Assembly (NCBI RefSeq): GCF_000483485.1
Contig: NZ_KI519609.1
Coordinates: forward strand, 1,083,460-1,147,459
Direction: 5' to 3'
Origin: Thiomicrorhabdus chilensis DSM 12352
GTDB lineage: Bacteria; Pseudomonadota; Gammaproteobacteria; Thiomicrospirales; Thiomicrospiraceae
DNA: 64,000 nt
Position numbers and translations under genes: made by a program. The first letter of the stretch is position 1; every line of letters starts with the position of its first letter. Below the pieces are notes generated by a model, which worked only from the letters and a program-made list of their open reading frames with translations, had not been told where the DNA came from and did not search any database. This document shows, piece by piece, positions 3,246 through 51,413 of the stretch.

Positions 3246-3261
3246 CAGGCCTGCTCATTTT
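3246..3261 (+). repeat. CAGGCCTG element, one arm (CTC-ATTTT)
   Basis: Core 3246-3253 plus the arm ATTTT after a three-base spacer. It lies between prfB and lysS, 28 bases after the prfB stop. Confidence 0.8.
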
Positions 3262-4856: not shown

Positions 4857-4884
4857 AAAAACCCGCTGTAAAGCGGGTTTTTTT
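4857..4884 (+). terminator. Intrinsic terminator of lysS
   Basis: Stem AACCCGC / GCGGGTT with a TGTAAA loop, flanked by AAAA before and a run of T after. It starts about 25 bases past the lysS stop. Confidence 0.9.
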
Positions 4885-4919
4885 ATGGGGGAGGGGTTTA
4901 TGCCTGCAAGCGTTATTGG

Positions 4920-4960
4920 AAAATCGGCAGGCCTGTGTTCTTAACAGGCCTGCCGGTTTT
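4920..4960. repeat. Inverted pair of CAGGCCTG elements
   Basis: Two full elements in opposite orientation: AAAA-T-CGG before the core at 4928-4935, and the core at 4945-4952 followed by CCG-GTTTT. Nine bases separate the cores. Together they form a long hairpin with A on the left and T on the right, like a bidirectional terminator, between the convergent genes lysS and ygfZ. Confidence 0.85.
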
Positions 4961-4986
4961 GAAGTGGCAAAATAGAGTTAAAAACA

Positions 4987-26346: not shown

Positions 26347-26378
26347 CAGGCCTGCCCAATTTGTTTTGAACAGGCCTG
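26347..26378. repeat. Two CAGGCCTG cores at a convergent junction
   Basis: Cores 26347-26354 and 26371-26378, 16 bases apart; the first is followed by CCC-AATTT. As each core is a palindrome, they can pair as a hairpin. They lie between the EAL gene (plus) and the HlyD-type gene (minus). Confidence 0.75.
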
Positions 26379-30836: not shown

Positions 30837-30871
30837 CAGGCCTGTTGAGATGAGACAGGCCTGTCGGTTTT
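30837..30871. repeat. Pair of CAGGCCTG elements
   Basis: Cores 30837-30844 and 30856-30863; the second has TCG-GTTTT after it, the first an A-rich flank (TAAATAAA) before it. They can form a hairpin. The position fits a terminator for the EF-hand-like gene, which ends at 30924 on the minus strand. Confidence 0.8.
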
Positions 30872-30923: not shown

Positions 30924-32153
30924 TCACACCGCCAAGTCGATTTGTTGCACGCTGCCGGCCCCTTTTCCATCCTCATAGAGAAAAACCCCACTGCTGACCA
31001 CTTGTCCCTGTAGCTGATTGGTTGGATCTTTATGGCTGAAAGGGGTGGTGATGTTTTGTAAAGCGATGGCCCCTATGTTGAGTTCCATCAATCCTTGTAA
31101 ATGGTCGAGACCGTTGGCATCCTTATGCCAGATCTGCAATTGAGAAAACACCGCATCGTTTTCGTCGATCCAGCCGTTGCCATCGTCATTATAGTGTGCC
31201 AGATCGGCAAAGCCGTTGCCGCTTTGGGTGCCAAACAGTTCCTGTCCATCATTGACCTGTCCGTCAAGATTTTTATCCAGTGCCAAAAAACCGGAACCGG
31301 GCTGCACAAAGGAGACGGAGTCTTTTTGGCCATCCGCGTCAATATCAAATTGGACTTTCTCCAAGGTCAAACTCGCCGGGCTTCCACCGAAGTTCACGGT
31401 AAGTGGATCTTTCAGAACCAGGCCTTTTTCGCGTTCGACTGTGACTTGAGTGGAGAAGCTGCGGCTCATATGCATGTTGAGGTCAAATTTGATGGTTTTT
31501 CCATCGGTCGTTTTAACATGACCAAGTGCTTGGAAAGCACTCTGTTCTTGCTCGTGGTAGGTGCTCAATAGCTGCCAACGTTCGCCCAGCACCGAAGTTT
31601 GGCTGGCTGGGCGTTGAAAACCGCCAATTTCAGGCTGACTTAAGGCCGGGGCCTCAACCGGAAGCGAATCCGCAGAATCCGTATCACGCGGTTCATAGCC
31701 ATAGACTTTGAGGTGATAGGGTTTGCCGGTCATCTTTTCCATCAGCGATTCAATCGCCTCGATCATCTTGATCAGGCCGGGCGGCAAGGAGGGTGCGTTA
31801 GCCACTCCTTGATTGTCCATCACATTCGTCTGGCCGTTATGCGACGAATTTTGAGGCGTCGATTTAAAATGTTCGCTTAAGCGCGTCAGCTGACGATCGT
31901 CTTGTCTATCCGGACGCCCCAGCGTATCGTTTAAAGAGGAAGCGCTTCGTGAGTTTTCCCCCTTGTTGTGTGAAGATCGATGGCTTGCGTGTTGTTCAAA
32001 CAAGCTCATCGACTCAGTTTTGCTGGTGGCGGTTTCCGTGGTTCGGTTGTTGAGCATTCCGTCCACAAAGGTTTCGTGAATACGTTGGATTCGGCTTTCA
32101 GTTCGCGTGTAATGCTGCGCCGAAAGCTGAAGATTCTGGTCTAAAATTTTCAT
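30924..32153 (-). CDS. Protein with EF-hand-like calcium-binding repeats, function unknown
   Basis: 409 residues from the ATG at 32153, which has CGGGA eight bases upstream; an earlier in-frame ATG at 32186 is possible. There is no signal peptide. The N-terminal half is Ser/Thr/Asn-rich and low in complexity. The C-terminal half has Asp-rich loops of EF-hand or dockerin type: DIDADGQKDS, DKNLDGQVNDGQE and DDGNGWIDENDAVF, with LFGTQSGNGFADLAHY between the last two. This C-terminal block recurs in a family of uncharacterised proteobacterial proteins. The acidic loops suggest calcium binding and perhaps export, but no secretion genes are adjacent. Confidence 0.65.
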   Translation of the reverse strand: MKILDQNLQLSAQHYTRTESRIQRIHETFVDGMLNNRTTETATSKTESMSLFEQHASHRSSHNKGENSRSASSLNDTLGRPDRQDDRQLTRLSEHFKSTPQNSSHNGQTNVMDNQGVANAPSLPPGLIKMIEAIESLMEKMTGKPYHLKVYGYEPRDTDSADSLPVEAPALSQPEIGGFQRPASQTSVLGERWQLLSTYHEQEQSAFQALGHVKTTDGKTIKFDLNMHMSRSFSTQVTVEREKGLVLKDPLTVNFGGSPASLTLEKVQFDIDADGQKDSVSFVQPGSGFLALDKNLDGQVNDGQELFGTQSGNGFADLAHYNDDGNGWIDENDAVFSQLQIWHKDANGLDHLQGLMELNIGAIALQNITTPFSHKDPTNQLQGQVVSSGVFLYEDGKGAGSVQQIDLAV

Positions 32154-41630: not shown

Positions 41631-44196
41631 GTTTGTTAGTTTTGTAATTGCATTCGTATTAGCGGTTTTTAGCTTTTACCAGCTTAAAACGCTGCCACCC
41701 TTGTGGTTGGCCGTGGCGTTATTGCTCGTCTTGCTGAGTATTGTGCTCATGACTAAAAAAAGTGGTGTTTCGCTTAGCACCCGTCCGCTATCTTTACCTG
41801 CATCTAGGTTTTCTTGGTTAAAACGTCCTGAACCCAGTTGGGTGCTTAATGTTTTATTGGGGTTCATTATAGGCTGGAGTTGGGTGTTTTGGCAGACTTT
41901 TTTTTCGGTTAATGTCGAGCCGCTATGGCTGGATAAACCGGTTGTGATTCAAGGCGAGGTGGTCGGGTTGCCGCAGATGACAACCACTGAAAGAGGGCTG
42001 CGCTATCGCTTTTCGATGCGCCTTCATCACATCCGTGATCCAGAATCACTTCAGCCAACGGCAAAAAACAAGTCATTTGAAAACGAGCAGGCCTGGTACG
42101 GGCCAAAACCGACGGTTCAACTCAGCTGGTATTTGAGGCCAGAAGCAGAACAATTGAAACCCTTTCTGCCGGAGCCCAAGCAGATCTGGCAATTGCAGGT
42201 TAAATTGAAAACCAATCACGGCTCCATGAACCTGGGTGCTCTGGATTATGAGTCCTGGTTATATCAGAACCGCATCGCCGCTAAAGGCTATGTGGTGGAC
42301 AAGATAGATAAGGCCGATGGCACGCAGGTGAACCGCCTGCTTCCTGGAGAGGTCGATAGCGGTCTGCGCCATCAGCTCGCGCAGAGGTTGCAGAATGTGT
42401 TTGCAGACAGTCCGTTTAAGGGCTTGTATCAGGCGCTCAGTTATGGAGACAGAAGCGCGATAACGGATGGCCAATGGCAGGTTTTACAAAATACCGGCAC
42501 CGTACACCTGATGGCCATTTCAGGGCTGCATATGGGCATGGTGGCGCTCTTGGGCTATTTGCTGTTTAAGGTTTTGTGGTGGCTGGGTCTTTATCGAATC
42601 CGGCATTTGAATCTTCCCCTATTCGGAGCAACCGGAGCCTTGCTTTTTGCCAGTGTGTATCTGGTTCTGGCTGGATTCTCCATCCCCACCCAACGCGCCT
42701 ATCTGATGGTGGTGGCGGTGTTGCTGTTCTTGTTTATGAAACGCACATTCCAACCCTGGTCAGCATTGGCTTTGGCCGCATTATTGGTGGTGTTGTGGGA
42801 TGTGCGTTCGGTGCTCAGCCTGGGATTTTGGCTGTCTTTTTTGGCGGTGGCGCTGATTTTTGCGGTTTTGCAGATCCCATTGGTCAAAAGGTCACCCAGG
42901 TGGCAGCAACTGATCTGGATTCAATTGGTTTTGACCTTCGGTCTGGCGCCTTATTTGATTTGGAGTTTCCATTTCTTACCCACTTTTAGCTTGCTTGCTA
43001 ATCTGGTCGCGGTTCCTTTTGTCAGTTTTATCGGGTTGCCGATGGTGTTTTTGGCTTCTTTTTTGGCTTTGTTGTCAACTTCCATAGCGTCACAAAGTGT
43101 GGTGTGGATGGATGGGCTGTGGGAGCTGGTGTGGTCTTTTTTACAAACTTTGTCCGCATGGCAGAACGCGTCCATCACCTTAGGCAGTTTGAGTTTGTGG
43201 CAACTGGGTCTGTGCTATTTTCTGATGTTTACTGTGTTGCTGGCTGGAAATCGTCGTTTACGTTTAGCGGCAATGTTTTTTCTGCTAATCGGTGTGTTGT
43301 GGGTCGGGGTGTTTTCAGCAAAAGAGCGGCCTCAAAACGGGCAGGCCTGGTTGAATGTGCTGGATGTCGGCCAAGGGCAGGCGCTGGTGATCGAGACTCA
43401 AAATCATGTTTTGGTGTATGACACCGGAGCTAAGTGGGGCACTAAGATGGATGGAGCCAAGCTGGCGGTTTTGCCTTTTTTAAGAGCCAGAAACTGGACT
43501 CAGGTGGATAGGGTGATGGTCAGTCACAGTGATATGGATCATGCCGGCGGTTTGCAACGGCTGTTGAATGAGATTGATGCCAAAGAGGTCACCAGTGGCC
43601 AACCAGAGGTGCTAATGAAGGCGCTGAGGCCAACTGAATACACTATTGAATCCTGCCGTGCCGGACAGCAATGGCAATGGGACGGTGTGGAGTTTTTTGT
43701 TTTGTCCCCGGGCATTGCCGGTTTGGATAAGAGCTTGCGTAGCGACAATGACCGTTCGTGTGTGCTTAAGGTAACTGCCGGAGCGCACTCCATTCTAGTG
43801 ACCGGCGATCTGAGTGCGCGCGGCGAGAAAAAATTGCTGAAGGCTTATGCGCAAACAGCCGACGGAAATCCGTTATCGGCGGACATTCTGGTTGCAGGCC
43901 ACCACGGCAGTCGTTATTCAACCGCCCCGGAGTGGCTGGCGCGGGTTCAGCCCAAAGTGGTACTGTTTTCTTCGGGTTATAAAAACCGCTATCACTTTCC
44001 GGCACAGCAAACCCTGCAGCGTTTGGACTCAAAGGTGCGGTGGTTCAATACGGCGTGTGCGGGTGGGATCGGTTATCTGATTGACCGCAATCGCGATGAA
44101 TTCGGGTCTGAGCCTCAATATCAGGCGAGACAATTGCGGCTTAAATGGTATCATCACCGCTGTTCACCGGAAAATAAAGGAATTCTGTTTCAATGA
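41629..44196 (+). CDS. comEC: DNA uptake channel ComEC/Rec2
   Basis: A large inner-membrane protein of 855 residues. N-terminal helices precede a soluble OB-type domain (about 90-210, PVVIQGEVVGLPQ and GALDYESWLYQNRIAAKGYV). The competence domain begins LYQALSYGDRSAITDGQW and AISGLHMGMVALLGYLLFKVLWW and is followed by many helices. A C-terminal metallo-beta-lactamase-like domain has LDVGQGQALVIE and SHSDMDHAGGL. ComEC carries single-stranded DNA across the inner membrane in natural transformation. The start at 41629 shares two bases with the DUF2062 start on the other strand; the stop overlaps lpxK (ATGA). Two armed CAGGCCTG elements lie inside, both on the minus strand. Confidence 0.9.
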   Translation: MFVSFVIAFVLAVFSFYQLKTLPPLWLAVALLLVLLSIVLMTKKSGVSLSTRPLSLPASRFSWLKRPEPSWVLNVLLGFIIGWSWVFWQTFFSVNVEPLWLDKPVVIQGEVVGLPQMTTTERGLRYRFSMRLHHIRDPESLQPTAKNKSFENEQAWYGPKPTVQLSWYLRPEAEQLKPFLPEPKQIWQLQVKLKTNHGSMNLGALDYESWLYQNRIAAKGYVVDKIDKADGTQVNRLLPGEVDSGLRHQLAQRLQNVFADSPFKGLYQALSYGDRSAITDGQWQVLQNTGTVHLMAISGLHMGMVALLGYLLFKVLWWLGLYRIRHLNLPLFGATGALLFASVYLVLAGFSIPTQRAYLMVVAVLLFLFMKRTFQPWSALALAALLVVLWDVRSVLSLGFWLSFLAVALIFAVLQIPLVKRSPRWQQLIWIQLVLTFGLAPYLIWSFHFLPTFSLLANLVAVPFVSFIGLPMVFLASFLALLSTSIASQSVVWMDGLWELVWSFLQTLSAWQNASITLGSLSLWQLGLCYFLMFTVLLAGNRRLRLAAMFFLLIGVLWVGVFSAKERPQNGQAWLNVLDVGQGQALVIETQNHVLVYDTGAKWGTKMDGAKLAVLPFLRARNWTQVDRVMVSHSDMDHAGGLQRLLNEIDAKEVTSGQPEVLMKALRPTEYTIESCRAGQQWQWDGVEFFVLSPGIAGLDKSLRSDNDRSCVLKVTAGAHSILVTGDLSARGEKKLLKAYAQTADGNPLSADILVAGHHGSRYSTAPEWLARVQPKVVLFSSGYKNRYHFPAQQTLQRLDSKVRWFNTACAGGIGYLIDRNRDEFGSEPQYQARQLRLKWYHHRCSPENKGILFQ
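42080..42095 (-). repeat. CAGGCCTG element with arm, inside comEC
   Basis: AAAA-C-GAG before core 42088-42095; the minus strand reads CAGGCCTG-CTC-GTTTT. Confidence 0.7.
43334..43349 (-). repeat. Second CAGGCCTG element with arm, inside comEC
   Basis: AAAA-C-GGG before core 43342-43349; the minus strand reads CAGGCCTG-CCC-GTTTT. Confidence 0.7.
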
Positions 44197-51032: not shown

Positions 51033-51130
51033 AGCGCCAACCCTTGGGGGGACGCTAAAAATAAAGAGGTAAATTCACGCCGCATTGCCCACCGCAATCG
51101 GTTGTGAGTGATCCGTGAGGGTTCACTCGT
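51033..51130 (-). promoter_or_regulatory. Possible riboswitch expression platform and btuB leader
   Basis: Downstream of the aptamer on the minus strand are two inverted repeats: GAGTGA / TCACTC (51104-51130) and AGCG..CGCT with a C-rich/G-rich inner stem (51033-51056). Neither has a T run, so control of translation start is more likely than termination. Structure was judged by eye. Confidence 0.4.
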
Positions 51131-51305
51131 TTCTCTGGCCGGTATCCGGGCTTAAGAGCGGTTTCAGATGGCCTTCTCGGAAAGGATTTTCCAATGGCAT
51201 GTTAATCTGTCTTCTCTATCACCGTTGCGGGGGCAGCGTAGGAATTAAAGCCACACAAAAAAACATGATCGTGTGTCTTTGCACCAAACTTCCCGTTTAA
51301 CGCAA
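51125..51305 (-). ncRNA. Cobalamin riboswitch upstream of btuB
   Basis: Read on the minus strand, the conserved aptamer elements occur in the expected order: GGGAAGTTTGGTG near 51297-51280, GCTGCCCCCGCAACGGTGA at 51237-51219, the B12-box part CATGCCATTGG near 51201-51191 followed by a GAAAATCC / TTTCC stretch and AGAAGGCC, and AAGCCCGGATACCGGCC near 51153-51137. The aptamer binds a cobalamin and represses the downstream B12-uptake gene btuB. About 165 bases separate its 3' end from the btuB start. Sequence match is strong; boundaries are approximate. Confidence 0.9.
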
Positions 51306-51413
51306 TCCAAGTCATCAAATCAAATAGACAATAATCAAATGGATTGTGCACCAGAAAACGCGCATTGTAAGCCTTTAGGCGCAAGCTTGCAAATCCATCA
51401 AGGGCGATTTGAG

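Follow-up and report, generated by a model that had tools for sequence, protein, structure and literature searches.

Close inverted pairs of a dispersed palindromic repeat as candidate intrinsic terminators at gene ends in Thiomicrorhabdus chilensis

Introduction

The convergent genes lysS and ygfZ of Thiomicrorhabdus chilensis DSM 12352 are separated by two neighbouring copies of the word CAGGCCTG, and the question raised by this junction is whether such pairs could end transcription and what kind of repeat supplies them. In the original prediction, made from the letters of a 64,000-nucleotide stretch of this genome (hereafter the window), the pair was read as a terminator-like hairpin of the sort formed by inverted pairs of uptake sequences in Neisseria.

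Specific uptake words are known from the Neisseriaceae and Pasteurellaceae (PMC1852404, PMC3630211, PMC12616744, PMC13020248). For both Neisseria and the Pasteurellaceae, the relevant passages of Kingsford et al. 2007 (PMC1852404) describe pairs of the uptake word in tail-to-tail gaps, with A- and T-tails supplied by the extended motif, a bias toward outward orientation and an enrichment of pairs beyond the distribution of single copies. A use of uptake words in terminators is likewise described in the corresponding passages of Frye et al. 2013 (PMC3630211), TerminatorNet 2026 (PMC13020248) and Helsem et al. 2025 (PMC12616744). Co-option of uptake-like repeats as terminators is an established principle.

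Results and Discussion

The inverted pair between lysS and ygfZ

Both copies are exact and stand nine bases apart, as had been described, in the context GGAAAATCGG-CAGGCCTG-tgttcttaa-CAGGCCTG-CCGGTTTTG, with AAAATcgg to the left and ccggTTTT to the right of the two cores. The strong hairpin with A on its 5' side and T on its 3' side was likewise borne out, with a predicted RNA fold of positions 4912-4966 at -32.0 kcal/mol on the plus strand and -25.4 on the minus strand (z of about -7 against mononucleotide shuffles). The description of the copies as facing outward holds for the A/T arms and not for the cores; each core is a palindrome, and therefore the outward direction is set by the arms only. 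The coordinates of these and the other features discussed are collected in Table 1.

Table 1. Positions of repeat copies, neighbouring genes and a predicted terminator in the window.
Feature	Start	End	Strand	Basis or remark
lysS, lysine--tRNA ligase	3304	4833	+	TIGR00499, 717 bits, above cut-off; gene caller start 3322
Ordinary bidirectional intrinsic terminator AAAACCCGCTGTAAAGCGGGTTTT	4858	4881	.	between lysS and pair; good predicted tails on both strands
Inverted CAGGCCTG pair	4920	4960	.	A/T arms point outward; hairpin predicted on either strand; sequence and folding
First palindromic core CAGGCCTG	4928	4935	.	exact copy
Second palindromic core CAGGCCTG	4945	4952	.	exact copy
ygfZ, CAF17-like YgfZ	4987	6072	-	TIGR03317, 87 bits, cut-off 49
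Single CAGGCCTG core	21485	21492	.	convergent junction
Second inverted pair	26347	26378	.	cores 26347-26354 and 26371-26378; convergent junction 26289/26420; hairpin without U-tract
Third inverted pair	30837	30863	.	cores 30837-30844 and 30856-30863; between two minus-strand genes
Single CAGGCCTG core	33013	33020	.	convergent junction
ComEC/Rec2 DNA-internalisation protein	41623	44196	+	TIGR00361, 405 bits; PF03772
Single CAGGCCTG core	56716	56723	.	A/T arms on both sides; convergent junction
Single CAGGCCTG core	62701	62708	.	convergent junction

The assignment of ygfZ rests on the match in Table 1; against the full-length model NF007110 its product scores 134, under the cut-off of 219. The pair stands 34 nt after ygfZ and 94 nt after lysS, and its tails, of 4 T only, score -3.60 on the plus strand and -3.08 on the minus strand, which lies beyond the -3.5 setting on the plus strand only. 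The first hairpin 3' of lysS is the ordinary terminator, which is better-tailed than the pair. By prediction, lysS transcripts would therefore meet the pair as their second terminator, and ygfZ transcripts would meet it first, with its weaker tail; because a bidirectional terminator is already in place, the pair is probably a backup or supplement at this junction.

The window holds 28 cores, and at least one copy was counted at six of its ten convergent junctions, in agreement with the original prediction. The two further pairs that had been listed both exist, and each departs from the expected picture in one respect: the pair at 26347 has no U-tract on either strand and no predicted terminator even at lax settings, and the pair at 30837 does not lie at a convergent junction, its U-tract being on the minus strand, which is the strand of the gene ending at 30924. 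A search of the window against Rfam returned a cobalamin riboswitch only (51120-51339, minus strand, 85.5 bits).

A dispersed repeat that gathers at gene ends

CAGGCCTG, which is its own reverse complement, occurs 900 times in the 2.44 Mb genome of T. chilensis, compared with 26 copies of the reversed word used as a control. Its surroundings were analysed at 180 sites in a 464 kb sample, consisting of the window and 20 evenly spread stretches of 20 kb and thus containing the three pairs of the window, with genes called by a home-made caller to which long ORFs were added. On one side the core is followed by YYS(A/G)TTTT (YYSRTTTT), with T at +12 to +15, so that an AT-rich part stands at a fixed spacing; although arm orientation was fitted, and pair members were among the sites used, T appears at the same positions in the symmetrised profile.

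The sampled sites comprised 93 in coding sequences (CDS), 41 in codirectional, 32 in convergent and 10 in divergent gaps, and 4 at stretch edges, equivalent to 0.23, 1.4, 4.5 and 0.7 sites per kb for CDS, codirectional, convergent and divergent DNA, respectively. CAGGCCTG with its AT-rich arm is a genome-wide dispersed repeat gathering at gene ends. Single copies share this bias, with codirectional singles closer to the stop codon in 26/35 cases, and therefore position alone is no proof of termination. The arm showed neither a replication-strand bias (80 vs 100 of the 180 sites, P 0.16), by which a replication-oriented element was rejected, nor a coding-strand bias (44 vs 49). The evenness of spacing (CV 0.80, 159 gaps) is biased by the 20 kb stretches and was left unused. 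As far as is known, REP/BIME elements are confined to intergenic DNA, and an identity of the repeat with these was discarded on the basis of the share of sampled copies found within CDS.

Number, position and orientation of close pairs

Genome-wide, 35 close pairs (gap of 1-31 bp) were found and 9 with a gap of 32-62 bp; the reversed word gave no close pair (gap 1-31), a weak control because that word is rare. The close pairs are distributed over 18 convergent gaps, 16 codirectional gaps, no divergent gap and one CDS. The resulting intergenic-to-CDS ratio of 34:1 compares with 61:93 for single sites, pairs having been counted genome-wide and singles in the 464 kb sample only, and the ratio of convergent to other gaps shifted more weakly, from 24:47 for singles to 18:16 for pairs (P 0.049). 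Codirectional pairs were closer to the upstream stop than to the next start in 14/16 cases (P 1.5e-4), and the median distance from stop codon to pair was 37.5 nt over 52 flanking gene ends.

The genome-wide count of pairs, part of a check that had been proposed, upheld their position at gene ends. In the 464 kb sample, random placement within the intergenic classes gave 5.0 expected close pairs and placement within all DNA classes 5.8, against 6 seen (P 0.39 and 0.52), and in the sample minus the window 4.4 were expected and 3 seen. An excess of close pairs as such is therefore unsupported once the density of sites at gene ends is allowed for, and their number needs no special cause past that density. 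Pairs with gaps of 32-62 bp were rarer than the placement model predicted in the same sample (1 seen, 4.6 expected), so that close spacing is favoured over middle spacing, and not over density.

These numbers are what would be expected if the pairs were neutral by-products, that is, if the repeat piled up after genes, where little constraint comes from coding sequence or promoters, and pairs arose through density and stopped nothing. The graded densities of the four DNA classes, the placement models and the gene-end bias of single copies are all consistent with this explanation.

Orientation was assigned in the 25 pairs with a gap of at least 9, of which 12 were outward, 8 inward and 5 tandem. 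An excess was found for inverted over tandem pairs (P 0.004) and for outward pairs alone over 25% (P 0.011). Some inward pairs have an outside T-run that does not come from their own arm, for example those at 986345 and 1599243.

Stem fit and predicted terminators

Complementarity between the flanks of the 34 intergenic pairs was compared with that obtained after right flanks were exchanged among pairs. Stems extended outward by 2.91 contiguous Watson-Crick bp (0.89 in permuted sets) and inward by 1.65 (0.51 permuted), and 0/2000 permutations reached either value. Since this complementarity goes beyond chance, the pairs look built as hairpins. Single copies in CDS fell below their permuted value (0.37 vs 0.54), as did codirectional singles, and convergent singles of the same genome formed a weak hairpin apex (mean 1.46 vs 0.78, P 0.03, n 24).

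Terminators were predicted with an ungapped imitation of TransTermHP, which returned 0/238 hits in once-shuffled junctions. Convergent junctions carried a predicted terminator in 15/18 cases with a pair, 9/21 with a single core and 5/16 with no core, and codirectional junctions in 8/14, 12/31 and 25/164 cases, respectively (pair vs no core, P 0.003 convergent and 0.0008 codirectional), junctions of <20 or >400 bp being left out, by which 2/34 intergenic pairs were dropped from these counts. The predictions at pairs are partly circular, because two cores alone give an 8-bp stem; with two cores within 31 bp making a stem, they turn mainly on the tail. A comparison that avoids this circularity is that of sense-side U-tails, which scored at or below -3.5 for 43/52 pair ends and 52/79 intergenic singles (P 0.0045), with medians of -4.14 and -4.06 (best offset). 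The difference is modest because single copies, too, bring T with their arm.

Scored at the pair itself and on the gene-side strand or strands, 24/34 intergenic pairs were predicted terminators on at least one strand and 10/34 on none. Own-genome junctions with a predicted terminator holding a core numbered 7/17 (convergent) and 4/39 (codirectional), under the same limits of junction length. Ordinary terminators were not scarcer at junctions with pairs (2/18 convergent pair junctions vs 2/16 others), and therefore there was no sign that pairs substitute for these.

Altogether, these observations suggest that close pairs after genes probably act as intrinsic terminators, often in both directions. 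When two copies of CAGGCCTG follow a stop codon at no more than about 30 bp from each other, their cores would pair in the transcript. The stem would continue into the flanks, preceded by an A-tract and followed by a U-tract that both come from the arms, and the whole would make an intrinsic terminator that could often work in both directions. From the sequence, the predicted hairpin, the gene-end position and the flank fit, all of which are observed, we infer that RNA polymerase would stop at these sites. The likeness to Neisseria that had been proposed is thus sustained by gene-end position, flank fit and U-tails, and not by the count, which is not above density. Against the terminator role count the pairs that were not predicted as terminators, the missing U-tract of the pair at 26347 and, at lysS/ygfZ, the short tails of the pair next to a better-tailed ordinary terminator. 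The pair between lysS and ygfZ most likely adds to that terminator at 4858-4881. The original observation was right and its reading right in kind, with this pair likely a supplement and with uptake, considered below, as a role suggested by analogy.

Of the other explanations, the neutral one fares best and is nevertheless unlikely, given a flank fit far over that of permuted partners, U-tails better than those of singles, and the use by relatives of single cores within long GC-rich stems with U-tracts, described in the next section. That the hairpins chiefly protect mRNA 3' ends or serve as processing sites, in the manner of REP elements and not in termination, would suit pairs with stable stems and poor U-tracts, such as that at 26347, but we regard it as distinctly improbable as the main role in view of the 43/52 sense-side tails at -3.5 or better (best offset). 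Least probable is that the pairs serve as especially strong sites for binding or uptake, inverted copies suiting a dimeric DNA receptor, with an incidental hairpin: the palindromic core, the arms at defined spacing and the dialects would fit such sites, but the pairs are restricted to gene ends, with none in divergent gaps, and their complementarity runs into the gap between the cores, where a double-stranded binding site has no need of it.

Relatives and their dialects

Among 32 genomes of the genus, including that of T. chilensis, 15 have 236-1173 copies of CAGGCCTG and 17 have 3-74. G027 is among the rich ones, with 522. Three of five other genera of the family have 409-840 copies, and in 21 genomes from outside the family but within the class the count is 0-222, often higher than that of the reversed word (up to 222 vs 91). 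Every one of the 15 rich genomes of the genus contains close pairs, from 2 to 37 per genome; G021 and G004 have a single one apiece, and the remaining 15 have none.

Five rich relatives, sampled over 400 kb, carry the longer word ACCAGGCCTGGT. Single copies in these centre perfect palindromes, with at least 8 extra pairs per side, in 5/15 convergent gaps, compared with 1/28 codirectional, 0/5 divergent and 0/96 CDS sites, and their junctions with a predicted terminator containing a core numbered 8/21 (convergent) and 2/28 (codirectional), again for junctions of 20-400 bp. At the 3' end of lysS a terminator was predicted at 27/30 loci. In G009, G010, G030 and G027 this terminator has one core at its apex (AAAGCCCCGATTACCAGGCCTGGTAATCGGGGCTTT in G009), the own genome has the pair and an ordinary terminator, and the other 22 loci have ordinary terminators.

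The CAGGCCTG-poor genome G024 instead has 1025 copies of the palindrome ACCGGCCGGT, and none of the remaining 31 genomes has more than 15. G024 also makes terminators from this word, which takes part in 3/6 of the predicted-terminator junctions of its 80 kb sample. The search for alternative words covered five of the 17 motif-poor genomes of the genus. In G003, G020 and G025, at 80 kb each, no comparably enriched word was found, the strongest being CGCCGGCG in G025 with 12 sites. Stretches L175-L178 of G021 are enriched in CCGGCCTGTTGA, a GGCC-centred word that is asymmetric where those of relatives are palindromes.

Additional copies were observed elsewhere around lysS. The gap between prfB and lysS holds an inverted pair about 17-25 bp before the lysS match in G030, G006, G027, G015 and G019, and in G010 this distance is about 67 bp; such a pair might terminate prfB transcripts or act as a lysS attenuator. 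The same gap in T. chilensis has a single copy at 3246. At G015:C1:979086-979163, three successive cores are separated by two 27-bp spacers of nearly identical sequence. Locus L055 of Hydrogenovibrio halophilus has 5 cores in 13.5 kb, compared with 16 in the 865 kb of the 75 loci L056-L130, and the word may therefore extend to Hydrogenovibrio.

Comparison with known systems

The repeat resembles the Neisseria DUS, as presented in the passages of PMC1852404 and PMC3630211 on this subject, in the hundreds of copies of one word, the close inverted pairs at gene ends, the AT-rich extension outside the stem and the dialects of related species. The enrichment of pairs over the single-copy distribution described there by Kingsford et al. 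(PMC1852404) is seen weakly here. The cores are unrelated, and GCCGTCTGAA was rejected as the identity of the repeat, occurring at control level (3+2 times, control 2+3). The palindromic core of the present repeat additionally leaves orientation to the arms only and lets a single copy be a hairpin apex, unlike in Neisseria.

With the USS of Pasteurellaceae, AAGTGCGGT plus AT-rich segments as the motif is given in the section concerned of PMC1852404, the repeat shares a core followed some bases on by an A/T run, a copy number of about 1,000 and the presence of the word in a share of terminators, which that section puts at 17-29% for the USS. The core is again unrelated, and palindromic here, and AAAGTGCGGT was rejected at control level (3 matches, control 8). 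Like cyanobacterial HIP1 (GCGATCGC; PMC4390886), it is an 8-bp palindrome repeated genome-wide, but with arms, gene-end enrichment and hairpin pairs that set it apart from HIP1. The pairs share with ordinary intrinsic terminators a GC-rich stem, a short loop and a U-tract after the gene, and differ in a stem made from a dispersed repeat and in a short U-tract, as at lysS/ygfZ.

Among the literature matches listed, none described the CAGGCCTG word, nor any uptake sequence from these genera. Relative to those matches, the word, the host group, the palindromic core and the use of a single copy as apex are new.

Possible role in DNA uptake

Copy number, arms at a fixed distance, dialects and the lack of a strand bias are traits of uptake sequences, which makes a role in uptake plausible. 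The dialects comprise ACCAGGCCTGGT in five relatives, ACCGGCCGGT in G024 and the asymmetric form in G021. By this analogy, self-DNA recognition in transformation may be the primary role of the repeat, a reading that we hold to be a real possibility without calling it probable; the non-palindromic nature of both known uptake cores, of Neisseria and Pasteurellaceae, counts against it. Somewhat more tentatively still, these words might form a class of palindromic, GGCC-centred uptake signals of Thiomicrorhabdus and its family, with the dialects CAGGCCTG plus T-arm, ACCAGGCCTGGT and ACCGGCCGGT, in which the vocabularies of uptake and termination would be coupled and switch together whenever the dialect does. 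Each word being self-complementary, one copy alone could then seed a bidirectional terminator as its apex.

If this were true, a third group with a palindromic core, the relatives of sulfur-oxidising Thiomicrorhabdus, would provide an independent case in which to ask what gives rise to uptake words, how they are read by receptors and why they end up in terminators. Close species that have the word, a different word or no evident word make a natural experiment on termination and transformation.

A GspH-type minor pilin (PF12019) was considered as a lead to a receptor and was set aside, with matches in 3/32 genomes, all motif-poor and barely past the cut-off. A link to a C5 methyltransferase, as for HIP1, is likewise unsupported: PF00145 has no match in the own genome, and matches in 8/15 motif-rich genomes of the genus include one under the cut-off. 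The ComEC family was found in the own genome and in 28/32 genomes of the genus; because motif-poor genomes and E. coli have it too, alongside matches in other genomes, it decides little on uptake. Two CAGGCCTG cores, at 42088 and 43342, lie inside the comEC/rec2 gene of the window.
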